Of a DNA stretch of 64,000 nucleotides, positions 7,715 to 57,937 are shown piece after piece. The notes under the pieces are model-generated. The model was not told where the DNA came from. It worked only from the letters and a program-made list of their open reading frames with translations, and searched no databases. The first letter of the stretch is position 1. Each line of letters opens with the position of its first letter. The translations under genes were made by a program, and so were the position numbers. Source of the DNA: Gemmatimonadota bacterium. Lineage in GTDB: Bacteria; JAAXHH01. The stretch spans positions 1-64,000 of the forward strand of contig JAPOZT010000031.1 in assembly GCA_026705925.1 (NCBI GenBank), in the 5' to 3' direction.

Positions 7715-9301
7715 ATGTACCGAATCTTCGCCATCCTCGCCCTGGTCATGGCGGCTGCCTGCCCCGCCGCCGCCCAGGAATATGACGTATCCGAACTCCA
7801 GACGCGCGCCGAATACTCCAATTTCGACGAAACGACCCGGTACGCGGAGGTCATGTCCTATCTCCGGGCCGCCGTGCTCGCTTCCGACCGGCTCCACCTG
7901 ACCGAATTCGGTTACACAACTGAAGGGCGAGCCCTGCCCCTGCTCGTCTTCGGCGACGTCTGGGACGCATCCGCGGCGGAAATATCCCGGTCCGGGAAAA
8001 CGAGAGTGTTCGTCCAGGCGAACATCCACGCCGGGGAGGTGTGCGGCAAGGAAGCCCTGCTCATGCTGATCCGGGAGCTGGCCTCCGGGGCGTACGCGGA
8101 CTGGGCCGATTCCCTGGTGCTGATGATGGCGCCGATCTACAATGCCGACGGCAACGAGCGGATCAGCCTGTACAACCGTCCGCGCCAGCATGGACCCGTG
8201 GGGGGCATGGGGCAGCGGCCGAACGTCCAGGGTTTCGATCTGAACCGCGATCACATGAAGCTGGATTCCCCCGAGGCGCGGTCCCTGGTCTGGCTCATGA
8301 ACGAGTACGATCCCCACGTGCTGATCGATCTCCACACCACGAACGGCACCGTCCACGGCTACCACCTTACCTACTCGCCGCCGCTCAACCCCAATACCGA
8401 CCGCCGGATCATCGAACTGATGCGGGATCGGTGGCTGCCCGAAGTGCGAGCCACCGTCCGGGAGGCTTACGGGTGGGAGTTCTACTACTACGGCAACGTG
8501 CCCAGGGCCGGGTCGGCCCGTGAACCGGGGTGGTACACCTTCGATCACCGGCCCCGGTTCAACAACAACTACGTGGGACTCCGGAACCGTATCGCCATAC
8601 TGAGTGAAGCCTATGCCTACGCGTCCTTCGAAGACCGCATCATGGCCACCCTGGCCTTCGTGAAGGAAAACGCCCATTTCGCCCACCGGAACGCGTCTTC
8701 GATACGCGAGACCCTGGAGACCGTGGACCTGGAATCGGTCGTGGGGCGGGAACTGGCCGTCCGTTCCGCATTCGCCCGGTCCGGTGAACCGGTGGAAATC
8801 CTGCTGGGTGAAGTCGACGAGATGCGCAACCCCTACACGGGCGAGGTCATGTATCTCCGGAAAGAAGTCCTGAAGCCGACTTCGATGTACGAGTACGGGA
8901 CATTCTCCGCGATGGAGACGGAGCGTGCGCCTCGGACGTATTTCGTACCCCCTTCCCTGTCCACCGTGATCGAGCGGCTAGGCGCCCACGGCATCTGGTA
9001 CGAGGAACTCTCCGGTCCGCGCGAACTGGCGCTGGAGCGGTTCAGGATAGACGCGTCGCAGGCCGCCGAGCGGCCCTTCCAGGGTAGACACGAACGGACG
9101 CTGACGGGTGTCTACGAACCCGTAGTCCACACGCTGGAACCCGGTACGCTGGTCGTACCGGTGGATCAGAAACTGGGCAGGCTGGTATACTACCTGCTGG
9201 AACCCCGGTCCGACGACGGCCTGGTCGCGTGGGCGCTGATGGACGATGTGCTCGAAGGCGCGGAGCACTACCCCATACTGCGCGAACCGGCCGATCCGTA
9301 G
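7715..9301 (+). CDS. Secreted M14-family zinc carboxypeptidase
   Basis: This 528-residue protein starts with the signal peptide MYRIFAILALVMAAACPAAA, with cleavage expected after AAA-Q. The M14 zinc site is visible as NIHAGEVCGKEALL (HxxE) and a downstream His in LIDLHTTNG. Substrate-site segments are NADGNERIS and GFDLNRDHMK, and the catalytic Glu is probably in ILSEAYAY. The last 200 residues form an extra C-terminal domain not needed for catalysis. It probably acts in the periplasm or outside the cell on peptides or modified amino acids. It lies between the VOC gene and a nucleoside hydrolase in the same direction. The DNA of its 3' end is copied in the following spacer. Confidence 0.9.
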   Translation: MYRIFAILALVMAAACPAAAQEYDVSELQTRAEYSNFDETTRYAEVMSYLRAAVLASDRLHLTEFGYTTEGRALPLLVFGDVWDASAAEISRSGKTRVFVQANIHAGEVCGKEALLMLIRELASGAYADWADSLVLMMAPIYNADGNERISLYNRPRQHGPVGGMGQRPNVQGFDLNRDHMKLDSPEARSLVWLMNEYDPHVLIDLHTTNGTVHGYHLTYSPPLNPNTDRRIIELMRDRWLPEVRATVREAYGWEFYYYGNVPRAGSAREPGWYTFDHRPRFNNNYVGLRNRIAILSEAYAYASFEDRIMATLAFVKENAHFAHRNASSIRETLETVDLESVVGRELAVRSAFARSGEPVEILLGEVDEMRNPYTGEVMYLRKEVLKPTSMYEYGTFSAMETERAPRTYFVPPSLSTVIERLGAHGIWYEELSGPRELALERFRIDASQAAERPFQGRHERTLTGVYEPVVHTLEPGTLVVPVDQKLGRLVYYLLEPRSDDGLVAWALMDDVLEGAEHYPILREPADP

Positions 9302-9400
9302 GCTCGCTTTACGAAGTTGACCGGCAGCCGGTTTATCGCAGGCCGACGCATGGCCGCCGATCCACAGGCTGCCGATCCACAGGCCGCCGATCCACATACG
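9290..9400. repeat. Stop-codon context of the M14 gene echoed as 15-nt repeats
   Basis: The end of the peptidase gene, gccgatccgtaggct at 9290-9304 (stop TAG inside), recurs about 50 nt downstream as three contiguous 15-nt copies at 9356-9370, 9371-9385 and 9386-9400. The first copy differs from the gene end only at two positions, which remove the stop (gtag becomes acag). The copies lie in the spacer before the nucleoside hydrolase ATG at 9449. Confidence 0.85.
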
Positions 9401-9448
9401 GCCGGAAAGTCCCGCGACGGCCCTGAATCCACCCCCGACGGAGCCCGA

Positions 9449-10426
9449 ATGCCCGTACGCATCATCCTGGACACCGATACGGGGGTCGACGATGCCCTGG
9501 CCATCCTGCTGGCCATGCGGTCGCCCGAGCTTCGCGTCGAGGCCATCACGGGAGTCTGCGGAAACACGCCGCTCGAAAACTGCATACGGAACATTCACCT
9601 CACCTTGAGCGTACTCGATGCCCGTGTAACGCCGGTCGTGGCCGCGGGCGAGGAGCGGCCGCTGGTCCGCGACCTGGCCTTCGCCGGGGACATACACGGC
9701 GAGGACGGACTGGGCGGCGTGACCGATCAGGTGGACGCGGACGGGCGCCGCGTATACCCGGACCCCGATCACCAGACGAGTACCGTACACGCCGTCGATC
9801 TGATCCCGGATCTCGCCGGCCGGTACCCGGGTGAGCTCATCCTGGTCGCCGTGGGACCGCTCACCAACGTCGCGCGAGCCGTCATGAAGGACCCGGACCG
9901 CATGCGCGGACTCCGGGAGATCATCATCATGGGCGGCGCTTTCGAGACCGTCGGGAATGTTTCTCCGGTGGCGGAATTCAACATCCACGCCGATCCCCAT
10001 GCCGCGCAGATCGTCTGCGATGCCGGGATTCCCCTGGTCTTCGTTCCACTGGACGTGACCCGGCAGGCCTTCCTGGATACGGGAACGATTGACCGCTACG
10101 CCGCCGAGGGTGGCGCCAGGGCGGGGAGTGCCAGAGCGGCCTTCGTGCGCGACTGCACGTCCCGTTACGTGGCCTTTCACCGGCGGAACAGGGGCGTCAA
10201 CGGCTGCTTTCTCCACGACCCCCTCGCCGTGGCCGTCGCCGTCCGGGAAGACCTCGTCACGACGGTGCCGGCCAGGGTGGATGTGGAAACCGCCGGCGAT
10301 CTCGCCACGGGCATGACCGTGTCCGACCTCCGTTCCGACCGGTGGGGCGCACCGAACGCGAGGGTCTGCACCGCGGTGGACGTCCAGGCATTCACCAGGC
10401 TATTCGAGGAAAGGGTGCTCGCATGA
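9449..10426 (+). CDS. Inosine/uridine-preferring nucleoside hydrolase family protein
   Basis: This protein of about 325 residues begins MPVRIILDTDTGVDDALAIL, which contains the DxDxxxDD calcium-binding motif of nucleoside hydrolases. Other family segments are GDIHGEDGLGG, VAVGPLTNVA, IIIMGGAF and EFNIHADPHAAQIV, and the last Asp ligand is in FLHDPLAVA. The enzyme should cleave the N-glycosidic bond of ribonucleosides to give base and ribose. The ATG at 9449 has GGAG five nt upstream and matches the family N-terminus; an in-frame start further up would translate the repeat array. Its TGA overlaps the start of the SDR gene (ATGA), which shows translational coupling. Confidence 0.93.
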   Translation: MPVRIILDTDTGVDDALAILLAMRSPELRVEAITGVCGNTPLENCIRNIHLTLSVLDARVTPVVAAGEERPLVRDLAFAGDIHGEDGLGGVTDQVDADGRRVYPDPDHQTSTVHAVDLIPDLAGRYPGELILVAVGPLTNVARAVMKDPDRMRGLREIIIMGGAFETVGNVSPVAEFNIHADPHAAQIVCDAGIPLVFVPLDVTRQAFLDTGTIDRYAAEGGARAGSARAAFVRDCTSRYVAFHRRNRGVNGCFLHDPLAVAVAVREDLVTTVPARVDVETAGDLATGMTVSDLRSDRWGAPNARVCTAVDVQAFTRLFEERVLA

Positions 10427-11169
10427 TCCTGAAAGACCGTACGGCCATCGTAACCGGCGGCGGACAGGGTATCGGCCGGGCGATATGCGGTATCTTCGCC
10501 GAAGAAGGCGCTTCCGTCGTGGTCGTGGATATCAACGAATCCGGCGCCGAGGAGACCGCCCGGCAGCTGAACCGGGCAGGCCATGCCGGACGGTCCGCAC
10601 GGGCTGTCCGGGCGGACATCTCGGTCGCGGCGGAGATCAGCGCCCTGGCCGACGGGGTCGTCGAGGAATACGGCCGCGTGGACATTCTCGTGAACAACGC
10701 GGGACTGGCCCTGTTCAGGTCGGTTGCAGCCTGCACGGAGGAAGAATGGGACCGGGTGATGGCGGTCAATCTCAAGGGACCGTTCCTGTTGTCGAAGGCC
10801 CTGTTGCCCACCATGATCGCCCAGCAGTCCGGCGCGGTGATCAACCTGGCCTCGGTCGCGGGGAAGACTGGCGGCGTGGTGTCCGGCGCGCCCTATTCGG
10901 TATCCAAGGCCGGAATCGAGTGCCTGACCAAATCTCTGGCCCGTGAGCTGGCGCCGAACGGGGTCCGGGTCAACGCCATCGCGCCCGGGATCATAGACAC
11001 CGCCCTGACCGCCCACCACGACCCGGCGTTCGTCGACGCGATCCCCCTGGGCGGCAGCAAGGGGGAACCACAGGACGTGGCCGAGGCCGCGCTGTTCCTG
11101 GCATCGGACCGGTCGCGGCACATCACCGGCGAGATCCTGGACGTCAACGGCGGACTGTTGATGGACTGA
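10423..11169 (+). CDS. Short-chain dehydrogenase/reductase (SDR), FabG-like
   Basis: This 248-residue classical SDR has the nucleotide-binding motif GGGQGIGRAI, the structural NNAG in LVNNAGLALF, and the catalytic Ser-Tyr-Lys in NLASVAGKTGG and PYSVSKAGIE. VVVVDINES after the second strand suggests NAD rather than NADP as cofactor. The substrate is unknown. It starts inside the stop codon of the nucleoside hydrolase gene (ATGA overlap), so the two are made together. It may belong to the same route as the downstream CoA-transferase. A FabG role is unlikely, because no fatty-acid genes are near. Confidence 0.92.
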   Translation: MILKDRTAIVTGGGQGIGRAICGIFAEEGASVVVVDINESGAEETARQLNRAGHAGRSARAVRADISVAAEISALADGVVEEYGRVDILVNNAGLALFRSVAACTEEEWDRVMAVNLKGPFLLSKALLPTMIAQQSGAVINLASVAGKTGGVVSGAPYSVSKAGIECLTKSLARELAPNGVRVNAIAPGIIDTALTAHHDPAFVDAIPLGGSKGEPQDVAEAALFLASDRSRHITGEILDVNGGLLMD

Positions 11170-11202
11170 CCGCCCGCTTAGCGCGCCTGGACTGACCGCC
11201 CG
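11162..11202. repeat. Stop-codon context of the SDR gene duplicated
   Basis: The 15-mer tggactgaccgcccg, which includes the SDR stop codon TGA (11167-11169), occurs at 11162-11176 and again, without any mismatch, at 11188-11202. The copies are 26 nt apart. The second copy lies wholly in the spacer before the acyl-CoA synthetase fragment. Confidence 0.85.
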
Positions 11203-11229
11203 GCGGGGCATACACGGAAACCGCATATC

Positions 11230-11877
11230 ATGACCACATCCGTTTCCAATTTCGCTCTGGACGTCGTGGACCGGCATGCGCGGGAGCCGGGCCGGGTCGC
11301 CCTCCGATGGCAATACGCAGGCGGCGTCACGACGGACGTGACTTTCCTGGACATGAAGATACGCTCCGAGAAGGTCGCCAACGTGCTGCACCAACACGGC
11401 GTGCGTCCGGGACACCGGGTGTTCATCCTGCTGCCGCCATGCACGGCCTGGTGGGAGTCCGTCCTCGGCTGCATGCGCACGGGCGCCGTGGCCGTACTGG
11501 GCCAGGACGCGTCCACGGCACAGGTCCTGAAGGACCAGATCAACCGGTCCCGGTCGTCGCTGGTGATCGCGTCCGACGCCGTTGCGGACATGATCGGCGG
11601 GATCATGGACGACTGCAGCCGGATCACCCACTGGCTTTCCGTAGGGTGGGAGCGTGAGGGGTGGGTGGATTTCGACCGCCGCGTCTCTCTCGCCCCGGCC
11701 GGCTTCAAGGCGGTGGAAACGGGCGGATCCGATCCGTGCATCGTCGTCTACGACCAGGGATCGCCGGCCTCTGAAACCACGCACCGTCACGGCGACGAAG
11801 GATACGACCTGGAGCAGCTCGACGCGTGGCGCGACGGGCTGGCCATCGCGTTGTACGAAGCATCCGAGCATCCATGA
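11230..11877 (+). CDS. Half-length acyl-CoA synthetase (ACSM-like N-terminal part only)
   Basis: These 215 residues align with the N-terminal part of medium-chain acyl-CoA synthetases: SNFALDVVDRHA, KVANVLHQHGVRPGHRVFIL and CTAWWESVLGCMRTGAVAV are characteristic. The protein ends shortly after the place where the AMP-binding P-loop should be. The expected TSGTxGxPK is replaced by DQGSPASETTHRH, and everything after it (adenylation core, C-terminal lid) is missing. It should therefore not activate acids. The reading frame is open, starts with ATG, and its stop overlaps the CoA-transferase start (ATGA), so it looks maintained rather than decaying. It could be a binding or regulatory partner, or a recent remnant. 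Confidence 0.75.
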   Translation: MTTSVSNFALDVVDRHAREPGRVALRWQYAGGVTTDVTFLDMKIRSEKVANVLHQHGVRPGHRVFILLPPCTAWWESVLGCMRTGAVAVLGQDASTAQVLKDQINRSRSSLVIASDAVADMIGGIMDDCSRITHWLSVGWEREGWVDFDRRVSLAPAGFKAVETGGSDPCIVVYDQGSPASETTHRHGDEGYDLEQLDAWRDGLAIALYEASEHP

Positions 11878-13031
11878 TTCCCGCACTGACCGACTGCCTG
11901 GTGGTGGAGTTGACCACGCAACTGCCGGGTCCCTACTGTGCCATGCTGCTGGCCGATCTCGGAGCCCAGGTGATCAAGGTGGAACCGCCCGGCGGGGATC
12001 CCCTGCGCGGTTTCCCCCCGGCGTACGCCAGCGTCAACCGCGGCAAGCGGAACATCGTGATCGACCTCAAAAAGGACGCGGGCAGGGCGGTCATGAGTCG
12101 CCTGATCGACCGGGCGGACGTCGTGCTGGAAGGGTTCCGACCGGGTGTGGCCGAACGGCTCGGCGTGGACTATCCCGCGGCAAAAAGCCTGAACCCCGCC
12201 ATCGTGTACTGCGCCATATCGGGATTCGGACAGGAAGGCCCCTACAGGAACCGTGCCGGTCATGACATCAACTACCTCGCGATCGGGGGTCTGCTCGGAC
12301 GCGGCGATCAGCTTGCGGTCCCTCCCGTATTGATTTCAGACCTTTCCTCCGGCCTGTACGCCGCGCTGGGCGTTTCCGCCGCGCTCCTGCGGCGCGCGTC
12401 CACGGGGGAGGGAAGCTTCATCGATCTGTCCATGACCGACTGCGTCCTGTCCTGGATGGCGCCCGACATCGCCGCGGCGGCGCAGGATCCGGAGGCGGCC
12501 CGGGGCCAGTTCCTCGGGAACATCCCCCATTACGGGATCTTCGAGACCTCGGACGGCCGGCATATCAGCCTCGGGATCGTCCATGAGGACCATTTCTGGA
12601 CCCGTTTCTGCGACGCCACGGGACTGGACGGCTGGCGGAACTGGCCTTCGGAGAAACGGCTGGACCGGGCGGCCGAAATCAGGGAAAAACTTTGCGCTGT
12701 TTTTGCCACGACAACCTGCCGGGAATGGGACCGTAGACTGCGCGAAGCAGACGTACCCTGCGCACCCATTTACCAACTTGACGAGTTACCGGACGACCCT
12801 TATATACAGTATCGAAACCCGTTTTACCATCTCGTCGCTTCCGACCGGTCGGAAAGCCGTCAGGTCAGAGCGCCGTACCGTACGGATACGCCGGAGTCCG
12901 AAGCCCCGCTCCCGCCTCCCGTCATGGGCGAACATACGCGTCCGGTGCTTTCGGAGACCGGCTATGGTGATGACGAGATTGACCGATTGATTCGACTTGG
13001 CGCAGTACACGCATCCCGAACCGGGGAGTAA
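11874..13031 (+). CDS. Class III CoA-transferase (CaiB/BaiF family)
   Basis: This protein of about 385 residues begins MIPALTDCLVVELTTQLPGP and continues LADLGAQVIKVEPPGGDPLR and VNRGKRNIVIDLKKDAGRAV, the standard start of family III CoA-transferases. The catalytic Asp is expected in PVLISDLSSGLYAALG. These enzymes move CoA between carboxylic acids. Typical length is about 400. The ATG at 11874 overlaps the stop of the synthetase fragment. Since that fragment cannot activate an acid, this transferase is the likely source of the CoA thioester in the local pathway. The acid is unknown. Confidence 0.92.
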   Translation: MIPALTDCLVVELTTQLPGPYCAMLLADLGAQVIKVEPPGGDPLRGFPPAYASVNRGKRNIVIDLKKDAGRAVMSRLIDRADVVLEGFRPGVAERLGVDYPAAKSLNPAIVYCAISGFGQEGPYRNRAGHDINYLAIGGLLGRGDQLAVPPVLISDLSSGLYAALGVSAALLRRASTGEGSFIDLSMTDCVLSWMAPDIAAAAQDPEAARGQFLGNIPHYGIFETSDGRHISLGIVHEDHFWTRFCDATGLDGWRNWPSEKRLDRAAEIREKLCAVFATTTCREWDRRLREADVPCAPIYQLDELPDDPYIQYRNPFYHLVASDRSESRQVRAPYRTDTPESEAPLPPPVMGEHTRPVLSETGYGDDEIDRLIRLGAVHASRTGE

Positions 13032-13055
13032 CAGCCGAATCCCAAAGGAGTTATG

Positions 13056-14603
13056 ATGAGCATCCGCGTGCGCAACTGGCGTGACCAGGCGCCCTATGTC
13101 GGGCATATCAGCGCGCTGGTCTGGACACTGTACCAGTCCCATGACAAAGACGAGACCTCTCCGCCGGAAATCAACCGGCTGCACGGCATCAACAGCTTCG
13201 TCAAGCACGGCCTCCAGGGCCACCAGCACTCGGACCACCACCGGCACGACAACATCGAGCAGTTGTATTTCATCCTCCGCGGACGCGGCCAGTTGCTGAT
13301 CGGGGACGACAAGGTGGACGTCCGGGACGGCACGGCCGTCTACATGCCCGTGAACGTGCCTCACCAGGCGTTCAACGACGGTGAAGGCTGGATGGAGCAC
13401 CTGATCGTCAGTTGCCCGCTCGACATAATCCGGGAGGGCACGCCTGCGGTGCGGGACTGGCGCGACGTTCATCCGGTCGTGCTGGACGGCGGTACCGTTT
13501 CCTGGCCGCTGCTGCGTAGAGAGGAGGATGCACCGGCCGGCGAAGGCGGCGTGCTCCAGTGCGTGCAAAGCGTGACCCGCTACGCGGTCCAGGGGCGCCA
13601 GGGAACCGCCTGGCAGCAGTTGGATGGCATCGAACTGGTCCACTACGTACTTAGCGGATTCGGCATCGTCGAGGATCTGGACGGGGACCGCCAACTGGTC
13701 ACGGAAGGTTCCGCGGCCCACGTGCTGCCCGGGGTTGCCCATCGATTCTCCAACGAGGGCGAGGGCTGGCTCGAGTATGTCACGTTCGCCGTCGAGGTCG
13801 GCGAGGTCGAAGCGCCGGACAGATCCGAAGATTTCGAGGAGTCCGAAGAACCGGCGGTTGAATACGGCGTGGAAGAAGTCGCCGCGGCTGCCGTGGTGGC
13901 GGAGGTCGATTGGGATGACGCCGATGCGGTGGAGACCGAAGAGGAAATCGAGGAGGACGGAACCGACGATGGGGCCGACGACGACGTGGAGTCGGCGGAG
14001 GCCGAGGATGAGGCCGCGGACAGAGAGGACGACTCAGACGAGGCTGACGACGTGGAGTCGACAGAGGCCGAGGATGAGGACGGCAACGACGAAATAGACG
14101 ATGAACCCGGCGAAGCGGCGGAGGCCGAAGCAGAAGACGTAGAAGCGACCGAAGATGAAGTTGATGACGAAACAGAGACCGAAGCGGAAGAAACCGAGGC
14201 GGCCTATGAGGACGATGATGACGTGCCTGAAGTTGAAGACGTAGATGACGTAGATGACGTAGATGACGTAGATGACGTAGATGACGCAGATGACGCAGTG
14301 GTCGCGGATGCCGACGATGCGGACGACGAGGTAGTGGAAGTGGAAGACGAGGTTGAAGCGGACCAGGTCGCCGAGGACGTGGACGACGTGGACGACGCGG
14401 ACGACGCGGTCGTCGCGGACCAGGCTGCATCGACCGAAGCGACAGCACAAGCCGAAATGACAGCACAAGCCGAAGCGGACGACGACGATTTCGACATTGG
14501 TGACGACGACACGGACTTCGATATCGAAGACGAAGATGAAACCGTCGTGGAGGATGAAACAGGGGAGGATGACGACAATTCCCCTGATGCGGACAGGCGT
14601 TAA
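13056..14603 (+). CDS. Two-cupin protein with a 260-residue acidic tail
   Basis: Residues 1-250 form two cupin domains. The first has metal ligands in HSDHHRHDNIEQLYF and a late His in MPVNVPHQAF. The second (GRQGTAWQQLDGIELVHYVL to LPGVAHRFSN) lacks the first His pair and is probably metal-free. From about residue 254 to the end the chain is almost only Asp, Glu, Ala and Val, including runs of DVD repeats, with very few basic residues. Such a tail is not part of the family. AAAGGAG lies before two adjacent ATGs (13053 and 13056); the second has the better spacing. It may be an isomerase, dioxygenase or binding protein whose tail keeps it soluble, binds cations or binds basic partners. Confidence 0.85.
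   Translation: MSIRVRNWRDQAPYVGHISALVWTLYQSHDKDETSPPEINRLHGINSFVKHGLQGHQHSDHHRHDNIEQLYFILRGRGQLLIGDDKVDVRDGTAVYMPVNVPHQAFNDGEGWMEHLIVSCPLDIIREGTPAVRDWRDVHPVVLDGGTVSWPLLRREEDAPAGEGGVLQCVQSVTRYAVQGRQGTAWQQLDGIELVHYVLSGFGIVEDLDGDRQLVTEGSAAHVLPGVAHRFSNEGEGWLEYVTFAVEVGEVEAPDRSEDFEESEEPAVEYGVEEVAAAAVVAEVDWDDADAVETEEEIEEDGTDDGADDDVESAEAEDEAADREDDSDEADDVESTEAEDEDGNDEIDDEPGEAAEAEAEDVEATEDEVDDETETEAEETEAAYEDDDDVPEVEDVDDVDDVDDVDDVDDADDAVVADADDADDEVVEVEDEVEADQVAEDVDDVDDADDAVVADQAASTEATAQAEMTAQAEADDDDFDIGDDDTDFDIEDEDETVVEDETGEDDDNSPDADRR
14238..14300. repeat. 9-nt tandem repeat coding for Asp-Val-Asp
   Basis: Seven consecutive 9-nt units of the type gacgtagat lie in frame within the acidic tail of the bicupin; the first five (14238-14282) are identical and the last two have drifted. 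The surrounding 700 nt are also dominated by GAC, GAT, GAA and GAG codons with weaker repeats, so the tail probably grew by repeat expansion. Confidence 0.9.
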
Positions 14604-14615
14604 TCGAAAGCGTAC

Positions 14616-26569: not shown

Positions 26570-26633
26570 CGAGTTAAGGGGATACCGATTCACAGGGACA
26601 CCGATTTACTGGGACACCGGTTTACAGGGACAC
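26570..26633. repeat. Four 16-nt repeats copying the 3' end of the Gfo/Idh/MocA gene
   Basis: On the minus strand the Gfo/Idh/MocA gene ends GTGTCCCTGTAAACCG; this 16-nt unit is repeated with few changes at 26602-26617, 26586-26601 and 26570-26585. Because 16 is not a multiple of three, the copied stop trinucleotides (TAA, TAA, TGA, TAA) fall in frames 0, 1, 2 and 0 relative to the gene. The array fills the spacer up to tyrS. Confidence 0.9.
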
Positions 26634-30118: not shown

Positions 30119-30157
30119 TCCTGGAAACCTATCCTGGAAATTGATCCTGGAAGCCTA
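30119..30157. repeat. Three 13-nt repeats in front of a permease start
   Basis: Units tcctggaaaccta, tcctggaaattga and tcctggaagccta lie at 30119-30131, 30132-30144 and 30145-30157. On the coding (minus) strand each contains CCAGGA, which resembles a ribosome binding site, directly before the permease ATG at 30117. Confidence 0.85.
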
Positions 30158-30196
30158 TCCGTCCCGGACCGGCGACGTGCGGGATCGGGATTCGAA

Positions 30197-31102: not shown

Positions 31103-32515
31103 TTACTCCGCCCCGGCGCGCAGGCGGCGTTCGATGTCTCTGCGAATGAACCGGTTACCCCGCCTGGCCAGGTCGTCGAGCGCCTTCCTGGGCGTGGCCT
31201 GAAGAGACATGGCGGCCTGGAAGGCGCTCAGGGTCATGTTCACCAGTGGGATGCCGTATCCCTGTATGGCGTCTTTGGTACCGTATCGCGCCACGCGCAG
31301 GACGTACCGCTGGAAGGGATCGTCGGCCCAGACGTCCAGTGCGGAATACCTTGTGGGCAAGGTGGACAGGGCGTAGGCCGCTTCCCGTTCGTGGCGGGTA
31401 TTGGTCAGGAACTTCGCCAGGGCAATGGCGAGTTCCCGTATTTCCTCGTCCTCCTGCCTGAATACACACGGAGAGTCGGCCACGACGAAGGCGCCGGGGT
31501 CGATACCTGGCAGGGACGGGTACATCATCGGATAGAGTTCGATGACCCCTTCCTCGATCACGCCGGTCTCCAGCGCGCGCTCGTGGGAACGCCGGGTACC
31601 GTGATGGGCCTGGCGCATGGCGAGCCGGCCCGCGTTCCACAGGTCGGTCACGTCGTTGTTGCGCAGCCCGGCGGAGCCCGTCGGTACTACGGCGTGCACG
31701 TGTTCCAGGTCCACCATGAACTGCAGGGCCTTCACCCCCATCTCGCTGTTGATCACCAGGCTGTCGCCGCTGTCGTTGAACTGCCGCGCGCCGTGCCCCC
31801 AGAAAAAAGGCATCTGGTCCTGCTGCGGCGAATTCCGCTGGAAGGGCATGGCGAAGCCGTATACGTCGACCTCCCCGTCGCCGTCGCGGTCGAAGGTCGT
31901 CGCGCGGGCGGCGGCGAGGAATTGCTCGTAGGTCCAGAGGCGGTCGTCCTCGCTCGGGAGCAGATGCACCGCGTCCCGTTCCCGGAAGATCTCCAGATTC
32001 GCCACCATGTACCGGTTGCCGCCGATGAAGGGCAGGAAGTAGTGCCTGCCCTCATATTCGCTGAGACCGTAGTACGGACCGAAATCTCTTACATCTTCCT
32101 CGGAGAGATCGTCGTCGAAGGCTTCCAGGAGCCCGAACCGGGCGTATTTGAGTGCGATGCCCGACGTGCTGATCAGGATGTCCGGCGGACGTCCGGAAGC
32201 CACGGCGATGTCGATCTTCTGAAACCCGCTGGTCCAGTCGAGGGTTTCGATATCGATGCGGATCTTGCGGTCAGGATACAGCGCCTTGAAGTCGCGGACG
32301 ACTTTGTTGTACCAGTCCTTGACCGTGTACTGTGCTCGCCGCGGGTCATCCAGCGGGACGCCGTCCAGTTCGTGACCTGTGACGCCGACCCAGTAGTCCT
32401 GGGTCCAGAGCGTGAGCCTGATCTCGTCTTCGTCCGGCGGAGCGTCCGCCGCGCAGGCGCACAGTGCCAGCAGGATCGATCCGATCACGAGAGATTTGCC
32501 CATGGCGCAACCCAT
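31103..32515 (-). CDS. Lipoprotein sugar-binding protein of an ABC transporter
   Basis: This 470-residue extracellular solute-binding protein (family 1 type) starts with a lipoprotein signal, GKSLVIGSILLALCACAAD; the lipobox Cys is near residue 20. IRLTLWTQDYWVGVTGHELD opens the mature part, and SGRPPDILISTSGIALKYA is the usual early binding-protein segment. It captures a sugar and delivers it to the two permeases encoded downstream. Two in-frame ATGs (32515, 32503) are possible; the second gives a shorter n-region. The spacer upstream is a stop-containing repeat array from the DUF72 gene. Confidence 0.9.
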   Translation of the reverse strand: MGCAMGKSLVIGSILLALCACAADAPPDEDEIRLTLWTQDYWVGVTGHELDGVPLDDPRRAQYTVKDWYNKVVRDFKALYPDRKIRIDIETLDWTSGFQKIDIAVASGRPPDILISTSGIALKYARFGLLEAFDDDLSEEDVRDFGPYYGLSEYEGRHYFLPFIGGNRYMVANLEIFRERDAVHLLPSEDDRLWTYEQFLAAARATTFDRDGDGEVDVYGFAMPFQRNSPQQDQMPFFWGHGARQFNDSGDSLVINSEMGVKALQFMVDLEHVHAVVPTGSAGLRNNDVTDLWNAGRLAMRQAHHGTRRSHERALETGVIEEGVIELYPMMYPSLPGIDPGAFVVADSPCVFRQEDEEIRELAIALAKFLTNTRHEREAAYALSTLPTRYSALDVWADDPFQRYVLRVARYGTKDAIQGYGIPLVNMTLSAFQAAMSLQATPRKALDDLARRGNRFIRRDIERRLRAGAE

Positions 32516-32533
32516 TTCGGAACAAGCTCTACA

Positions 32534-32597
32534 GGTTTCAGAACAGGCTCAACTGGTTTCAGAACAACGCTTCAGGTTTCAGAATAGGCTCAGTTGG
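32534..32597. repeat. 20-21-nt repeats copying the 3' end of the DUF72 gene
   Basis: The DUF72 gene ends (minus strand) CTATTCTGAAACC, with TGA as stop. The unit ggtttcagaacaggctcaact (plus strand), split as a 21-nt copy at 32534-32554, a 20-nt copy at 32555-32574 and the gene's own end at 32575-32597, repeats it. A fourth, more degenerate copy lies at about 32515-32533. The TTCTGAAACC core with the stop codon is intact in three of them. Confidence 0.88.
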
Positions 32598-34741: not shown

Positions 34742-34789
34742 GTGCGTTTTCCTCTCAGTGCCGGTCGATGTTTGCCTGCGGTCATTCTG

Positions 34790-34860
34790 GACGATCAGTG
34801 CCGGACGTTCAGTGCCGGACGTTCAGTGCCGGACGTTCAGTGCCTTCCGGTCAGTAGGCC
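34790..34860. repeat. 14-nt repeats copying the 3' end of the E1beta gene
   Basis: On the minus strand the E1beta gene ends TACTGACCGGA; units of the type CACTGAACGTCCGG follow at 34832-34845, 34818-34831, 34804-34817 and 34790-34803. Each keeps the ACTGA that holds the stop codon. As 14 leaves remainder two on division by three, successive TGA copies lie in all three frames. Another partial copy lies at about 34755-34770, shortly before the E2 ATG. Confidence 0.9.
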
Positions 34861-41913: not shown

Positions 41914-42951
41914 ATGACGACGAGCGGCACCGCGCAGCGCGCAACCGAAGAAGGACCCGGGCAGGTACGCATTGAAGCATTCCAGGAGGGGCGTGAGAAG
42001 ATCCTCGCGGAAGTGCGCAAGGTGATCACCGGCCAGGAGGAGGTCCTGGAACAGGTGCTGATTGCCCTGTTCGCGGGAGGGCACTGCCTCGTGACCGGTG
42101 TGCCCGGCCTGGCGAAGACCCTGCTCATCAAGACCTTCGCCGAGGTGCTGGACCTTGAGTTCCGGCGCATCCAGTTCACCCCGGACCTCATGCCGGCCGA
42201 CATCACCGGGACGGAGATCCTGGAAGAGGACAAGGCTACGGGTCAGCGATCGCTGACCTTCATCAAGGGCCCGATCTTCGGCAACATCGTACTGGCGGAC
42301 GAGATCAACCGGACGCCGCCCAAGACCCAGGCCGCCCTGCTCGAAGCCATGCAGGAGCACCGCGTGACCGCCGGCCGAACGACGTTTCAACTGGACGAAC
42401 CCTTCTTCGTCCTCGCCACCCAGAATCCCATCGAACTGGAGGGAACCTATCCTCTGCCCGAGGCGCAGCTCGACCGGTTCATGTTCAACATCCACATAGA
42501 ATATCTCGAGGAAGACGACGAAGTGGCCGTGGCCCGTGCGACCACCTCCGCCGAGACGGTCTCGGTCGACACCGTCCTGTCGGGCGAGGTGGTCCGGGAT
42601 TACCAGCGGCTCGTCCGCGAAGTCCTGGTCTCCGAACAGGTCGCCCGGTACGCCGTTCGCCTGGCATGCGCGAGCAGGCCATCCGGCGAGGACGCGCCCG
42701 AATTCGTGAAGAACTGGGTTTCCTGGGGGGCCGGCCTGCGCGCCTCCCAGTACCTGATCCTGGGCGCCAAGGCCAGGGCCCTGCTCGACGGCCGGGGACA
42801 TGTTTCCTGCGACGACATACGCGTGCTCGCCCACCCGGTCCTGCGGCACCGGATCCTGACCAATTTCTACGCCGAAGCGGAGAAGATCACCTCCGAGGGT
42901 ATCGTCGACCGCCTGCTCGAGACCGTACCGGCCCCGCAGTCCGGCATGTAA
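41914..42951 (+). CDS. MoxR-family AAA+ ATPase
   Basis: This 345-residue ATPase shows ITGQEEVLEQVLIALFAGGH, Walker A CLVTGVPGLAKTLLIKTF, Walker B GNIVLADEINRTPPKTQAAL, sensor 1 PFFVLATQNPIELEGTYPLP and the C-terminal lid. MoxR ATPases act as chaperones for von Willebrand A proteins, here probably the DUF58 and BatA-like proteins encoded next. The MoxR-DUF58-VWA order is widespread, and loss in some bacteria affects stress tolerance or the envelope. The 3' end of this gene is copied twice in the spacer. Confidence 0.95.
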   Translation: MTTSGTAQRATEEGPGQVRIEAFQEGREKILAEVRKVITGQEEVLEQVLIALFAGGHCLVTGVPGLAKTLLIKTFAEVLDLEFRRIQFTPDLMPADITGTEILEEDKATGQRSLTFIKGPIFGNIVLADEINRTPPKTQAALLEAMQEHRVTAGRTTFQLDEPFFVLATQNPIELEGTYPLPEAQLDRFMFNIHIEYLEEDDEVAVARATTSAETVSVDTVLSGEVVRDYQRLVREVLVSEQVARYAVRLACASRPSGEDAPEFVKNWVSWGAGLRASQYLILGAKARALLDGRGHVSCDDIRVLAHPVLRHRILTNFYAEAEKITSEGIVDRLLETVPAPQSGM

Positions 42952-42996
42952 ACCGGCGCCGCAGTCCGGCATGCAAGTAGTCCACAGTCCGGCATG
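42936..42996. repeat. Stop-codon context of the MoxR gene echoed twice
   Basis: gcagtccggcatg (42936-42948, directly before the stop TAA) recurs at 42961-42973 and, with one change, at 42984-42996. The copies are 25 and 23 nt apart. TAA follows the third copy and TAG lies just after the second; another catgtaa follows at 43005-43011. Confidence 0.88.
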
Positions 42997-43038
42997 TAAC
43001 ACCGCATGTAACCTCTTATCAGTACCGACGGAATCGAC

Positions 43039-52433: not shown

Positions 52434-52462
52434 ATTATACACAACATACGGTTAGTCGTCAA
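52434..52462 (-). promoter_or_regulatory. lexA promoter with candidate operator
   Basis: Minus strand: -35 TTGACG (52457-52462), a 17-nt spacer, -10 TATAAT (52434-52439). Within the spacer lies the dyad AACcgtatGTT (plus-strand positions 52443-52453), where LexA could block its own gene. The half-sites resemble GAAC/GTTC-type boxes, but the centre is five rather than four nt, so this is a guess. The leader is about 65 nt. Confidence 0.65.
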
Positions 52463-52606
52463 TAAAAAAAAGAACTCCTATCATGGGCCAGTGGCGATAC
52501 CTCGAACGACGGCATACCCGGGAGGGTGCAAAAATCATGTGCGCAGGCCGCCGGCCGTCGTATATATTGATTCGACCGATCACGACCGCATGAACCGGAG
52601 ACCGCC

Positions 52607-52960: not shown

Positions 52961-54960
52961 ACCAGGGGCGCCACGGTCTTGGAAATCAGTGCGATCGCGA
53001 CCGTGGCCATGCCTACCAGCCCCGTGCCGCAGGCGTAGCCGGCCGCCAGGACCGGCGTGTACCGCATCCATTTTTGCCTGCCGAATTTCCGCTCCATGTA
53101 GTACCTGCCCAGCAGCGCACCCAGAAACTGCGGGATGAAGGCGTGAGGCACCGTGCCCACGCTGGCGATCACACCGAAGATCAGCATGACGGGAAGGTTG
53201 AAGGCCGCCAGGACGGCGTAGGCCAATACGCCGAAGGCCGCGCCGCCTACCATGTACGGGACCTTCAGCGCCTCGATCAGGTAGCTCGACTCGAACCCCG
53301 ATCCTGCCGTGCTGGAGTACCACAGCGCCTGCATGGTGGCCTGCTGCTGCCAGAACTTCTGTGCGTAGGGATAGGCCTGCGACGGTATGGGCGCAAGTCC
53401 CCATACGAAGTGCCAGAAAAGCAGGCTGCAGACGAGCAGGACCGGGATCATGACCAGTTCCGCCTTCAACACGCTCGTGAACCGGGTGCCGGTCAGCTCG
53501 ACCTCTCGGAAGGCCTGGGCCTGGCCGCCGTAGTTGAAAATCGGGATCGGCGCGAACCAGATGTCCACCCCCTTGTAGCCGCTGAGGATAAAGGTGGCCT
53601 CCTTGATGAGGGGGAACTGCAGATCGGCGCCCGTGATGGCGCGCAGACGGGCGCTCGCGTACGAACTGAGCGGTGTGTAGAGGAATCCGTAGAACACGAA
53701 GAAGAGGATGGGGAACCCGGGCACCAGGCGCCAGCTCAGGACGACGTAGCCGACCGTCAGGAGCAGGAAGGCGCCGAAAATCAGGGAAATGGGGAAATCA
53801 CCCCGGCCGGGCGGCGTGGTGCTCCTGGCGGCCGGACCGGCGGCCGGACCGGTCTTCGATCCTTCGCGTTTCGCTCCGGCCGATCGTTTCCTGAGTCCGG
53901 ACAGGATGCTCCATCCACCGATCAGGGCGACGGCGAATCCCGTGCCGATACGTACGCTCATCCAGAAATCGATATCGTTGACGAGCGTGGTCTGGATGGC
54001 GTCCATGCCCGGCGACCACGTGCGCAGGATGCCGAAATCGTAGAGCAACGGATTGACGACCACGGTAAGCAGCGCGCCGACGGCGGAACCGACCACGATC
54101 CAGAAGGGCAGCACGAACCCCGTCAGCACCGGCCCCAGACCCAGTTCGACCGCCATGGCCGCAGCGGGCAGGATGTTCTCCGTATTGCGGGTCAGGTCGG
54201 CGAAGGGAATGGGAATCAAGGTGATCGGCTCAGCCAGCAGCGCGCCCGTGACCGCCGGTATGCCGATGTAGAATGCGCCGAAGACGAGTCCCAGCATGGC
54301 CCCTATGCTGAAGGCGCGCCAGCGCCACGATTCCTGTCCCGCGGAACTCTCCGCCAGGGCCGTAGCGCCCTCCGCCTGGATCGGGGCCAGGGGGAAGGGC
54401 AGCCGCTCCACGTCCGCCGTAACCCTGAAGAGTCCGTAACCCAGGGTGAAGGCGCTCGCCCGGTTGAAGATGTGGAGCACGGCGATGAGCAGGATGGGCA
54501 CCAGCCATTCCCCGTGCAGCAGCGTGCGCAATACGATGGCGTCGGAATCCGCGCCGGGAGAGATCCAGGCAGGGATCTGGTCGTCGATGCCGAAGGCCCG
54601 GGCGCCGGGGGACTGGACGAAGTACTGGTACCAGATGAGCTGGGCGAAGGGGCCGCCGGAAAGCGCCAGACCTACGCCGGCGGTGAGGCTGGCCGCCACG
54701 TAGTACAGCATGTAGATTTCCTGGCGGCTGAGCGTGGTGAAGGACCGGCGCGCGACTTCGATGAACAGGATGATCGTGGTCCATTCCGCCGCGGGCCCGA
54801 GGCTCTGCCCGGCGATCAGGTTCAGATAGATCGAACCCGGTATCATGAACAGCCCCAGGAAGACGATCCCGATGACCGTCTTTACATTGAACCCTTCCTC
54901 GTAGACCTGGGGATGGTCGGAAAAGGCGGAGGCTGACAGGTCGTCCTTGACGAGGGTCAT
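52954..54960 (-). CDS. OPT-superfamily-like membrane transporter
   Basis: This 668-residue integral membrane protein has about 14-16 hydrophobic segments. YNLIAGQ-type loops (SIYLNLIAGQSLGPAAEWTT), RLPFPLAPIQAEGATALAES and GFVLPFWIVVGSAVGALLTV resemble oligopeptide-transporter (OPT) family proteins and related DUF6784/6785 proteins. OPT members import peptides or metal-siderophore complexes with protons. A hydrophilic loop of about 40 residues (near residue 360) is rich in Gly, Ala and Pro and may be another expanded linker. The lipoprotein gene lies upstream, 21 nt away, and the two probably share a promoter. Confidence 0.6.
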   Translation of the reverse strand: MTLVKDDLSASAFSDHPQVYEEGFNVKTVIGIVFLGLFMIPGSIYLNLIAGQSLGPAAEWTTIILFIEVARRSFTTLSRQEIYMLYYVAASLTAGVGLALSGGPFAQLIWYQYFVQSPGARAFGIDDQIPAWISPGADSDAIVLRTLLHGEWLVPILLIAVLHIFNRASAFTLGYGLFRVTADVERLPFPLAPIQAEGATALAESSAGQESWRWRAFSIGAMLGLVFGAFYIGIPAVTGALLAEPITLIPIPFADLTRNTENILPAAAMAVELGLGPVLTGFVLPFWIVVGSAVGALLTVVVNPLLYDFGILRTWSPGMDAIQTTLVNDIDFWMSVRIGTGFAVALIGGWSILSGLRKRSAGAKREGSKTGPAAGPAARSTTPPGRGDFPISLIFGAFLLLTVGYVVLSWRLVPGFPILFFVFYGFLYTPLSSYASARLRAITGADLQFPLIKEATFILSGYKGVDIWFAPIPIFNYGGQAQAFREVELTGTRFTSVLKAELVMIPVLLVCSLLFWHFVWGLAPIPSQAYPYAQKFWQQQATMQALWYSSTAGSGFESSYLIEALKVPYMVGGAAFGVLAYAVLAAFNLPVMLIFGVIASVGTVPHAFIPQFLGALLGRYYMERKFGRQKWMRYTPVLAAGYACGTGLVGMATVAIALISKTVAPLVY

Positions 54961-54981
54961 GCCCTGGCGCTTTCGTTTGCG

Positions 54982-55461
54982 TTATGGATCCGCGGGGGGC
55001 TCGGCGACGGGCAGTTTGAGCCAGACGTCCGTAACCTTTAACAACGTTCCGGAGACGTGGCGTATCTCCTCGGAGTTACGGATCAACCGAAGGCCATCGA
55101 AGGTAAATCGGTCCTCGTACTGCTGGTTGTCGGTCACGAAGTAGAACACGTTGTCCAGCACGCTCCAGCGTCCGTTCTGGATATTCACCGTCGTGGAATC
55201 CGAAACGGAAATCGTATCGACCTGGCCGTATCGGCCGTCGGTGCTGAGGCGGAGCCGTCCGCGTACCTGCGGCGGGACCAGCACGATCCGTTCCTCCGTG
55301 CTGCCGGAATCGGTCTGGATGGTGGAGTTGACCGTTCGGCTTTCGAGATCGTAGTCTCCTACAAGGGGCCTGGCGACCTTGCCGGGGCCGACAACATCCT
55401 CGCTGCATCCCGCGATCAACGCGCTGAAGAGCACACCGTAAGTCAGAATCTGCTTGAGCAA
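54982..55461 (-). CDS. Small lipoprotein of unknown function
   Basis: I propose the TTG at 55461 as start: GGAG lies six nt before it, and the protein then begins LLKQILTYGVLFSALIAGCS (written without the initiator), a lipoprotein signal with lipobox LIAG-C. The mature part of about 135 residues looks beta-rich (VGDYDLESRTVN, RGRLRLSTDGRYGQVDTISV, NGRWSVLDNVFYFVTDN), like a lipocalin-type or META-like single-domain envelope protein. No family is certain. The OPT-like gene follows on the same strand. A clear promoter lies about 170 nt upstream. Confidence 0.65.
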   Translation of the reverse strand: MLKQILTYGVLFSALIAGCSEDVVGPGKVARPLVGDYDLESRTVNSTIQTDSGSTEERIVLVPPQVRGRLRLSTDGRYGQVDTISVSDSTTVNIQNGRWSVLDNVFYFVTDNQQYEDRFTFDGLRLIRNSEEIRHVSGTLLKVTDVWLKLPVAEPPADP

Positions 55462-55629
55462 GGATTTCTCCGGCGGGATGACCGTGGTGTGGCGCCACGG
55501 AATGGCGTCAGCATAGCGCCAGCGAATGTCACCACGAATTGGCATACAGAATGGCGCAATGTTCGATGTAGGCCGGCGGCGATTCGGACCGCTTTCACGC
55601 GGCCGGTTCACCGGTCCGGGACGATTGAG

Positions 55630-55658
55630 ATAATAGGCACGCCCCCTGTGTGCGTCAA
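55630..55658 (-). promoter_or_regulatory. Promoter of the lipoprotein and OPT-like genes
   Basis: Minus strand: CGC, -35 TTGACG (55653-55658), a 17-nt spacer, -10 TATTAT (55630-55635). The leader to the TTG start is about 165 nt. Confidence 0.7.
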
Positions 55659-55691
55659 GCGATTACAGGTCCGTCCGCCGGCAAATTTCGC

Positions 55692-55720
55692 TTGACGTTT
55701 ACCGGCTCGCGGATTAGAAG
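55692..55720 (+). promoter_or_regulatory. Promoter of the third Gfo/Idh/MocA gene
   Basis: CGC, -35 TTGACG (55692-55697), a 17-nt spacer and -10 TAGAAG (55715-55720). It is divergent from the lipoprotein promoter, with 33 nt between the two -35 hexamers. The leader to the ATG at 55778 is about 50 nt. Confidence 0.55.
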
Positions 55721-55777
55721 TGATGGGCTTTTTACAGGCGGAACCAGTACGGCAATCGCACTACAGAGGCGAATCTC

Positions 55778-56881
55778 ATGACAGCCCTCAAGGCCGGCAT
55801 CATAGGATGCGGAAACATCAGCAGCGTATATTTCGAAGCGGGACGCAGGTTCGAGGCTTTCGACGTGACCGCCTGCGCCGACATGGTCCCGGAACGGGCG
55901 CGGGCCAAAGCCGCCGAATACGAGGGCGTGGAGGCCCTTTCAGTGGAAGCCTTGCTGGACGATCCCGCCATCGAGATCGTCATCAACCTTACCATTCCCG
56001 CCGCCCATGCCGAGATTGCACGGGCCGCGCTGGAACACGGTAAATCGGTGTATTCGGAAAAACCCATGGCGGTCCGGAAGGAAGACGCCCGCGCCTTGCT
56101 CGACCTCGCGGAGCGCGAGGGGAAACTGGTGGGCGGGGCGCCGGACACCTTCATGGGCGCCGGCATTCAGACCTGCCGCAAGCTCATCGACGACGGCTGG
56201 ATCGGCGAACCGGTGGCGGCCACGGCCTTCATGCTGAGTGCGGGGCACGAAAGATGGCATCCCGATCCCGCCTTCTTCTACAAGCCCGGCGCGGGACCTA
56301 TGCTGGACATGGGGCCGTACTACGTGACGGCCCTGGTCAATCTGCTGGGACCGGTCGCCCGGCTCACGGGCGCCGCACGCATCACCCATCCCGTGCGCAC
56401 CATTACGAGCGAGCCCCTTCGCGGAGGGCAAATCGAGGTCGAGGTGCCGACGCACCTGGCGGGCCTGCTCGAGTTCGAAAGCGGGCCCATCGGGACGATC
56501 GTGACCAGTTTCGACGTATGGCACCATGAACTCCCCTGCATCGAGATATACGGGTCGGAGGGCTCCCTGAGCGTGCCCGATCCAAACTCCTTCGGCGGGC
56601 CCGTGAAACTGCGCCGGGGCGGCGCGGAGCACTGGACCGAAATGCCCCTGAGCCACGGTTACGAGGAGCAAAACCGCGGCCTGGGCGTGGCGGACATGGT
56701 CTACGCCTTGCGATCGGGCCGTCCGCACCGGGCCAGCGGCGAACTCACTCGCCACGTGCTGGACGTCATGCTGTCCATCGAGGAATCGTCGGAATCGGGA
56801 CGGCACATCTCGCTGGAAAGTACCTGTGCCCGGCCGGCCCCGCTGCCGCTCGGACTGGCGCCCTATACCCTGGATACCTAG
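55778..56881 (+). CDS. Gfo/Idh/MocA family oxidoreductase
   Basis: This 367-residue protein has the Rossmann start LKAGIIGCGNISSVYFEAGR and the canonical EKP motif in SVYSEKPMAVRKEDARALLD. GAGPMLDMGPYYVTALVNLL is the C-terminal-domain active-site helix, here with Tyr instead of the more common His. It is a probable NAD(P)-dependent sugar or inositol dehydrogenase. It lies 8 nt before the DUF815 ATPase gene, so the two are probably co-transcribed even though the functions seem unrelated. Confidence 0.92.
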   Translation: MTALKAGIIGCGNISSVYFEAGRRFEAFDVTACADMVPERARAKAAEYEGVEALSVEALLDDPAIEIVINLTIPAAHAEIARAALEHGKSVYSEKPMAVRKEDARALLDLAEREGKLVGGAPDTFMGAGIQTCRKLIDDGWIGEPVAATAFMLSAGHERWHPDPAFFYKPGAGPMLDMGPYYVTALVNLLGPVARLTGAARITHPVRTITSEPLRGGQIEVEVPTHLAGLLEFESGPIGTIVTSFDVWHHELPCIEIYGSEGSLSVPDPNSFGGPVKLRRGGAEHWTEMPLSHGYEEQNRGLGVADMVYALRSGRPHRASGELTRHVLDVMLSIEESSESGRHISLESTCARPAPLPLGLAPYTLDT

Positions 56882-56888
56882 ACCCTTT

Positions 56889-57896
56889 ATGGCCGATCAC
56901 CCCGCAAGGACCCTTTCCGATCTGTTGCCGCGCCTCGAAAGGCTGTTGGGCCGCATCGAATCGCTGGTCTCTGCCTATTCGGAAGGGCGCGACGGACGGA
57001 CCGGGCAGGACGGGCGGACCGGGCAGGACGGGTGGACCGGGCGGACCGGGCAGGACGGGTGGACCGGGCCGACCGGGCGAACCGGGCAGTCCGGCGCGTC
57101 AGACGACGCGTTCGCCGGCTCCATCGCGTTCCGGTGGGGGAAGCGGACAGGGAAGGGCTGCCTGGAACCCATCGTGCACCCCGATCTGGTGGACCTGGTC
57201 GATCTCTTCGGCCTGGACCGCGAGATCGGGATCCTGGACCGGAATACCCGCCAGTTCGTCCGGGGGATGCCCGCGAACAACGTGCTGATCTGGGGGGAAC
57301 GGGGCACGGGCAAGTCTTCGGTGGTTAAAGGCCTCCTGGCCCGGTACGCCGGCGAAGGCCTGCGCATGATCGAAGTCCGCCGGCAGGACCTGATGGATCT
57401 GCCCGAGATCGTCGATCTCCTTTGGGACCGCCCCGAGCGTTTCGTCCTGTTCTGCGATGACCTGTCCTTCATGGAAGACGAATTCGATTATCTCGAGCTC
57501 AAGGCGCTCCTCGAAGGCAGCCTCTCCGCCCGGCCCGACAACGTGCTCGTCTACGCCACGTCGAACCGCAGGCACCTGATGCCTGAGAAGCTTGCAGACA
57601 ACACGTTTCGCTTCAGTCCGGACGACGATGAAATCCATCCCCAGGAAACCGTGGAGGAGAAGGTCTCGCTGAGCGACCGGTTCGGCCTGTCCATCGGTTT
57701 CTACCGGATCACCCAGGACACCTATTTCCGAATCGTCCGCCATCTCGCCGACCAACGCGGCCTCGACATGGACACGGGACTGCTGAGACGGGAATCCCTC
57801 CGGTGGCTCCAGCGCGCCAGCGGCCGTTCGGGCCGGGTGGCGCGGCAGTTCGTGGACGACCTCGAGGGCCGGCTCAAACTGGGCGAATCGCCGTAG
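56889..57896 (+). CDS. DUF815 AAA ATPase with Gly-rich insert
   Basis: This 335-residue protein has the DUF815 core: LDRNTRQFVRGMPANNVLIW followed by Walker A GERGTGKSSVVKGLL, Walker B RFVLFCDDLSF, sensor 1 NVLVYATSNRRHLMPE and FGLSIGFYRITQDTYFRIVR. Biochemical function is not known for the family. I chose the ATG at 56889. Residues 34-68 are a repetitive stretch of Gly-Gln-Asp-Gly, Thr-Gly and Trp units that is not part of the family; it sits between the N-terminal helix and the FRWGKR segment. The 3' end is duplicated just downstream. Confidence 0.9.
   Translation: MADHPARTLSDLLPRLERLLGRIESLVSAYSEGRDGRTGQDGRTGQDGWTGRTGQDGWTGPTGRTGQSGASDDAFAGSIAFRWGKRTGKGCLEPIVHPDLVDLVDLFGLDREIGILDRNTRQFVRGMPANNVLIWGERGTGKSSVVKGLLARYAGEGLRMIEVRRQDLMDLPEIVDLLWDRPERFVLFCDDLSFMEDEFDYLELKALLEGSLSARPDNVLVYATSNRRHLMPEKLADNTFRFSPDDDEIHPQETVEEKVSLSDRFGLSIGFYRITQDTYFRIVRHLADQRGLDMDTGLLRRESLRWLQRASGRSGRVARQFVDDLEGRLKLGESP
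56986..57095. repeat. In-frame 9/18-nt repeats in the DUF815 gene
   Basis: cggaccgggcaggacggg-type 18-nt units and 9-nt half units (cgggcggac, cgggtggac) are repeated through this stretch and keep the reading frame. They encode a Gly-x-x-Gly pattern. Sequence drift between units is low and occurs mostly at single positions. Confidence 0.85.
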
Positions 57897-57937
57897 AGTC
57901 AAGGCTGGCTCAAACCGGGCGAATTGCCGTAGATTCA
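57867..57937. repeat. 35-nt duplication of the DUF815 gene end, stop codon included
   Basis: 57867-57901 and 57903-57937 differ at only four of 35 positions. The first copy holds the last codons and the stop TAG of the ATPase gene; the second lies in the spacer and has its own TAG, exactly 36 nt later and so in the same frame. Confidence 0.9.

Follow-up and report, generated by a model that had tools for sequence, protein, structure and literature searches.

Why should the last codons of a bacterial gene, stop codon included, be found again as tandem repeats in the spacer that follows it? The question is raised by a 64,000-nucleotide stretch of a Gemmatimonadota genome (bases 1-64000 of contig C38, here called the window), for which an earlier note had described locus-specific repeats of gene ends behind seven genes and had proposed that something recurrently duplicates DNA around stop codons, or that selection keeps such duplications. 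Its observation is confirmed in part and its interpretation supported in part: gene ends are indeed repeatedly duplicated in this genome and its relatives, but the evidence does not bear out a mechanism directed at stop codons. The explanation that we favour, with a probability of roughly three in four, is that the stop is copied as a passenger, and not as the target, of short tandem duplication that occurs genome-wide and is then filtered by selection.

The window genome comprises 3,773,084 bases (3.77 Mb) in 38 contigs, and its closest named relatives are metagenome-assembled genomes labelled Candidatus Latescibacterota. The genus set, from a poorly known group of uncultured bacteria, consisted of this genome and eleven others of the same genus (G000-G011, 12 in all), among which G005 is a sister species; statistics for the window genome were drawn from 1,235,134 of its 3,773,084 bases (1.24 Mb) and those for G005 from 960,000 bases. 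As controls we used 56 of 78 loci from other phyla (L004-L081), the remainder having fewer than 9000 bases or too few codons for training, a subset of 29 of these 56 loci with a GC content of at least 0.59, and, within the phylum, four other Latescibacterota genomes (110,839 bases). For gene calling we used a simple custom codon-usage caller, whose start positions are approximate, and arrays were detected with Tandem Repeats Finder (TRF), periods below 10 being excluded from the genome-scale counts. A gene end was scored as copied when at least 13 of the 15 bases around the stop were matched downstream; copies of stops and starts were counted only for genes with a spacer of at least 40 nucleotides (nt), and the expected number of stop copies was obtained by swapping spacers among genes.

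By this measure the stop and its flanks are copied downstream at 57 of 598 stops in the window genome, where 0.4 would be expected, and start copies amount to 4 of 642. G005 has copies at 36 of 417 stops, with 1.4 expected, and at 13 of 503 starts, and the enrichment of stops over starts, the lack of which would have counted against the earlier note's proposal, holds in both genomes. Stop-spanning arrays likewise outnumber start-spanning arrays, by 47 to 6 in the window genome and by 36 to 9 in G005, and an array lies within 60 nt of the stop, for spacers of at least 20 nt, at 115/731 and 81/514 stops in the two genomes against 8/542 in the other phyla. A single shuffle of the spacers in the window genome reduced the number of non-coding arrays from 169 to 5. 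Of the 11 genus genomes sampled, 10 have arrays near stops, the exception being G004, with 8,997 bases. Strong as it is in the genus, the effect is weak or missing in the outside samples: in the other phyla, copies are found at 4 of 423 stops and 1 of 461 starts, and in the four other Latescibacterota genomes at 2 of 61 stops and none of 61 starts.

The repeats themselves are short and imperfect. In the window genome and G005 together, 298 arrays do not lie wholly inside a gene, with a median period of 18 nt, 2.5 copies and 89% match, and they consist of head-to-tail units in the range of about 10-100 nt that is typical of minisatellites. A 12-mer is common to only 10 of 14,535 pairs among 171 such arrays of the window genome, which bears out the claim that the units are specific to their loci and do not belong to one dispersed element; a dispersed family (mycobacterial interspersed repetitive units (MIRU), repetitive extragenic palindromic (REP) sequences and similar) was rejected on the same ground, as units are unrelated between loci. 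Non-coding arrays reach a density of 1.14 per kb in the window genome and 1.18 in G005, about sixfold the 0.18 of the other phyla and about fivefold the 0.23 of the 29 loci of high GC content. Within genes, the densities are 0.158 and 0.165 per kb against 0.036 in the other phyla (0.049 in the loci of high GC content), ratios of about fourfold and threefold, and the period is divisible by three in 160 of 172 in-gene arrays of the window genome and 135 of 141 of G005. Since in-gene arrays are about four times as dense as in other phyla and nearly always in frame, short tandem duplication is raised across the whole genome and not at stops alone.

The arrays also turn over between species. In related species the same gene ends, themselves largely conserved, are followed by none, one or several copies: behind the DUF72 gene there is no copy in G003 or G010, a single one in G008 and three in G005, and behind the MoxR gene there is none in G003, G007 and G011. 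The M14 peptidase gene of G011 has its own gene-end copy (14/15), and the argininosuccinate synthase gene (ArgG) of G003 has one that is evident by eye, with CAG at the stop, and that falls outside the 13/15 copy count; some copies, such as these two, look independent. At 76 junctions of the window genome that could be compared in at least four genus genomes, a stop copy is found somewhere in 19 (two pairs of which share one convergent spacer), and in 7 of the 19 it is found in one genome only, so change in copy number between lineages, a mark of variable-number tandem repeat (VNTR) loci, is seen here between species at the same junctions. At 4 of the 76 junctions the two clades of the genus both have stop copies (P 0.010), which may reflect shared ancestry or gene ends that are prone to duplication. 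In 201 spacers that are orthologous between the window genome and G005, gaps occupy 18-26% of positions in the first 80 nt past codirectional stops. An assembly artefact might be suspected, given that the named relatives are metagenome-assembled and that repeats are error-prone in assemblies; the substitutions between copies, the frame kept in genes and the recurrence at the same junctions in separate genomes argue against it, and we consider it highly improbable.

In the explanation that we favour, short tandem duplications (median unit 18 nt) would arise along the whole chromosome and be gained and lost quickly, slippage of the DNA polymerase or a comparable misalignment being the most likely origin. 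Selection would purge those that break the frame within genes and those that disturb starts or ribosome-binding sites. A unit that straddles a stop would be harmless: translation would terminate at the first of the copies as before, and the protein is left unchanged. Spacers in this genome are short (median 68 nt), and for this reason a unit placed in the free part of a spacer would often take in the end of the preceding gene and the stop would be duplicated along with it. A unit protruding into the gene by more than its own period would not be free, and of the 61 codirectional arrays that lie over the upstream stop, 56 keep within that limit. We infer that slippage is the process at work and that selection, not mutation, lies behind the scarcity of arrays at starts. 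Beyond exact two-copy duplications the match goes on for at least 2 bases in 17 of 20 cases that span a stop, in 28 of 41 in spacers and in 25 of 44 inside genes, against 16% expected for random flanks, although these counts pool orthologous stretches of relatives and not all of them are independent; such partial third copies are what slippage would give by lengthening short repeats already present.

A rival account is a mutational hot spot just past stops, where terminating translation or transcription, through ribosome release, RNA polymerase left uncoupled or R-loops, would expose DNA and raise duplication. Per available placement, arrays start at their highest rate within 25 nt past a stop, 3.4 per kb in the window genome and 3.8 in G005, compared with 0.61 and 0.64 in spacer sequence far from any boundary, 1.3 and 1.4 for stop-spanning arrays and 0.17 and 0.32 for start-spanning arrays, and array coverage is maximal 20-60 nt past stops, in convergent spacers as well. 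This first comparison gave an apparent five- to sixfold hot zone, which became smaller once spacer length and forbidden placements were modelled. For this we placed each array at random within its own spacer, with the extra copies removed and the 20 nt before starts barred, for 209 arrays in codirectional and convergent spacers that after collapse were at least 20 nt and below 400 nt long. Summed over six spacer classes, 77 of the 209 arrays cross a stop against 81.2 expected, and the overall excess is gone when each array is compared with its own spacer. Short codirectional spacers even show fewer crossings than expected (29 against 39.2 at 20-60 nt, 12 against 17.3 at 60-100 nt), and the convergent ones show 9 against 9.0 and 5 against 3.8, respectively. 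The part of the earlier proposal that stands is that gene ends are recurrently duplicated, and stops far more often than starts; the part that is not supported is an action centred on stops, as crossings do not exceed random placement overall.

Other observations also speak against a hot spot. Arrays are abundant inside genes with no clear rise towards the 3' end, the last tenth of the gene holding 21 of 170 in the window genome and 15 of 141 in G005, and the 60 nt next to the stop hold 17 in-gene arrays in each genome, those next to the start 10 and 13. Divergent spacers contain arrays too (25 and 23), and arrays begin freely on either side of the stop. The stop copies found in both clades at the same junctions would fit a hot spot, as would the behaviour of long spacers described below. 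Taken together, we consider a hot spot an unlikely explanation, and we hold in similarly low regard the narrower proposal that a mutational bias to the first tens of bases past stops, tied to the ending of translation or transcription, is added to the genome-wide duplication and becomes visible where long spacers separate it from geometry.

Several results weigh against passenger copying and partly in favour of such a bias. In spacers of 100-400 nt, stop crossings exceed expectation, 18 against 10.7 in codirectional (P 0.013) and 4 against 1.2 in convergent spacers (P 0.015), and arrays lie nearer stops than expected, 33 against 25.5 (P 0.039), with all 6 of the 6 convergent arrays near stops against 3.0 expected (P 0.013), all four P values being uncorrected. 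Crowding at the stop is also seen in spacers of 100-200 nt, in which 16 of 54 arrays fall in the first tenth. An aggregate model of spacers up to 200 nt gives the same tendency, with crossing by 55 of 149 codirectional arrays where a fraction of 0.28 was predicted and by 19 of 29 convergent arrays where 0.46-0.51 was predicted; this model is cruder than placement spacer by spacer, and the excess is mild. Compared with random intergenic points, therefore, arrays show no overall excess at stops (77/209), but they do show one in spacers of 100-400 nt and under the aggregate model. Array-bearing spacers make up 14-26% of each codirectional length class from 20 to 400 nt, with no steady rise with length, which is at odds with plain duplication per base unless it is constraint that makes the long spacers long. 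Between the window genome and G005, substitution identity is flat at 0.84-0.88 from 0 to about 180 nt past stops, and therefore no easing of constraint is visible right at the stop. In the orthologous spacers, only 28 of 236 indels of at least 8 nt resemble copies of neighbouring sequence at 80% identity, and the partial third copies may represent arrays in decay, not the seeds of new ones.

A further possibility is that selection keeps the arrays for a function at gene ends, for instance as back-up stop codons, as loading sites for Rho, as an RNA hairpin or as spacing to the next gene. The frequency of arrays within 60 nt of stops in the genus and the presence of some stop at the stop position in 85 of 137 copies would be in line with this. 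The position of the stop within the unit is flat, however (17/20/26/18 by quarter), 31 of 81 stop-copying units have a period that is a multiple of three, which indicates no link to frame, and the stop triplet is mismatched in 93 of 388 comparisons between copies, against 453 of 2365 in the rest of the unit, so it is preserved no better. A unit anchored on the stop codon, or one that preserves it, is not supported by these counts. Rho loading sites are expected to be rich in C over G; the arrays are GC-rich, with equal C and G content, and show no excess of C. In the 60 nt past stops of the window genome, the mean folding z score is -0.36 with arrays (n=69) and -0.28 for sampled stops without them (n=104). 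Back-up stops, Rho sites and hairpins thus give no signal in triplet conservation, base composition or RNA folding, and the presence of arrays shifts quickly between species; a selected function at gene ends appears very unlikely to us.

With passenger copying as the preferred explanation, the cause of the high duplication level itself was sought among repair genes. Duplication could have been raised genome-wide when the stem lineage of the genus lost the SbcCD nuclease, a cause that would be compatible with the stop as a passenger. SbcD is above the model cut-off in all four other Latescibacterota genomes, whereas 11 of 12 genus genomes give no match and G006 a weak partial one. SbcC scores 262-336 bits near full length in the same four genomes, against at most 41 bits in 7 of 12 genus genomes and no match in the other 5, on a model whose cut-off is reached by none of these genomes and passed by 1 of 14 control genomes. 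These four SbcD-bearing genomes are less dense in arrays, at 0.21 per kb. The loss is a single event, however, and across phyla the association is not seen: in 50 other-phyla genomes SbcD is above cut-off in 4, weak or partial in 20 and without a match in 26, and non-coding arrays reach 0.24 per kb in the loci without a match and 0.11 in each of the other two groups, compared with 1.14-1.18 in the genus. Absence of SbcD is therefore not sufficient, and its loss in the genus is a correlate only, which fits within the phylum but fails as a general cause; that it raised duplication here seems to us improbable. In G006, a 385-aa frame and an adjoining 928-aa frame at C39:90805-92198, with weak partial matches to SbcD and SbcC, respectively, form a possible divergent SbcCD-like pair.

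Other candidates were set aside. No Ku match was found in the 11 genus genomes searched, and repair of the non-homologous end-joining type was rejected as the source of duplications. MutL is above cut-off in all 11, as are RecJ and ExoVII (XseA), and the presence of these three in the genomes searched also counts against the SbcCD account. MutS1 matches occur in 11 of 11 genomes, 9 of them above cut-off, with fragments only in G004 and G010, and loss of mismatch repair was thus rejected. A gain of Y-family polymerases is not clear, with two matches in 10 of 11 genus genomes and one in G009, and one to three in 8 other genomes.

Bacterial minisatellites, or VNTR loci, have units of 10-100 nt in few copies, the number of which shifts between lineages. 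The arrays of the genus share this unit size, the few copies and the lineage-dependent copy number, but are about 5-6 times denser in non-coding sequence than in the other-phyla loci and occur in nearly all genus genomes sampled. In mycobacteria, MIRU likewise lie at gene junctions, where they may overlap stop and start codons, but they form a dispersed family of related units, whereas the units described here are unrelated between loci. The earlier note knew of no described system of this kind, a view that is not supported. A close parallel is provided by the Borgs, archaeal extrachromosomal elements, whose tandem repeats have much of the same anatomy, including first units inside gene ends (PMC9879509). 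The Borg repeats are pervasive, unique to their loci, fast-evolving and arranged head to tail, with in-gene units divisible by three, flanking partial repeats and units that are perfect and A-rich (PMC9879509). The genus arrays resemble them in being pervasive and fast-evolving, in their locus-unique head-to-tail units and in-gene periods divisible by three, and their partial third copies recall the flanking partial repeats (PMC9879509); they differ in being imperfect, GC-rich (post-stop arrays contain 17% A in the window genome and 16% in G005) and located on contigs of bacterial genomes. Direct repeats of Beggiatoaceae are also intergenic but consist of one shared heptamer, TAACTGA, mostly upstream of starts (PMC4679880), whereas the units of the genus are unrelated and lie near stops more often than near starts. 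The repeats are of a known kind, found here in a bacterial genus at unusual density. About 1 in 10 stops followed by a spacer of at least 40 nt is trailed by its own copy, an uncommonly clear natural record of duplication and survival, and a pattern as striking as copied gene ends can arise when spacers are short and constraint is of the ordinary sort.

Within the window, gene-end copies were recovered at six of the seven places that had been listed, namely behind the M14, SDR, Gfo/Idh/MocA, DUF72, MoxR and DUF815 genes; at the seventh, the unit of the E1beta array does not reach a 13/15 match with the E1beta gene end. The M14 array unit matches its gene end at 13/15, with CAG in the copies where the gene reads TAG, and the copies of the SDR 15-mer are spaced 26 nt apart. 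In MoxR, the repeated sequence is the 18 nt that end with the stop (42934-42951), both copies have 1 mismatch each and one of them has CAA for TAA; this repeat is absent from the TRF listing of the window. The list was selective, since the window holds further spacer arrays without gene-end copying, and gene-end copies are one part of this broader set; the arrays behind argininosuccinate synthase, for example, contain no gene-end copy at 13/15.

Table 1. Gene-end repeats and other spacer arrays of the window (coordinates are window positions; unit length and copy number by TRF where indicated).
Feature	Position	Strand	Description
Arrays after argininosuccinate synthase	7131-7257	+	two adjoining arrays, 17/34-nt and 16-nt units; start 15 nt past stop
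M14 peptidase gene end	9290-9304	+	TAG stop 9299-9301; resembles unit of array downstream
M14 downstream array	9352-9396	+	15 nt x 3.0 (TRF), 50 nt past M14 stop
SDR gene end	11162-11202	+	15-mer 11162-11176 including TGA 11167-11169; exact copy 11188-11202
Gfo/Idh/MocA array	26579-26633	-	16 nt x 3.4 (TRF); spans stop 26622-26624
Spacer-only array	30119-30160	-	13 nt x 3.2 (TRF); 36 nt from upstream stop; no gene-end copy
DUF72 array	32515-32591	-	21 nt x 3.7 (TRF); spans stop 32579-32581; copy number differs among species
E1beta array	34789-34844	-	14 nt x 4.0 (TRF); starts 6 nt past stop 34851-34853
MoxR gene end	42934-42999	+	TAA 42949-42951; 18-nt copies 42959-42976 and 42982-42999
DUF815 duplication	57867-57937	+	36 nt x 2.0 (TRF); spans stop 57894-57896
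Spacer array	61870-61897	+	14 nt, two exact copies; 22 nt past stop; no gene-end copy

Repeats are also present inside genes of the window. The N-terminal part of the DUF815 gene (56985-57094) carries collagen-like, GC-rich repeats of 9/27 nt, and the cupin-domain gene at 13053-14603 has in-frame 9/27-nt repeats near its end (14217-14420). Several tandem repeats with periods divisible by three are found at 1782-2161 in the minus-strand gene at 1070-2404.

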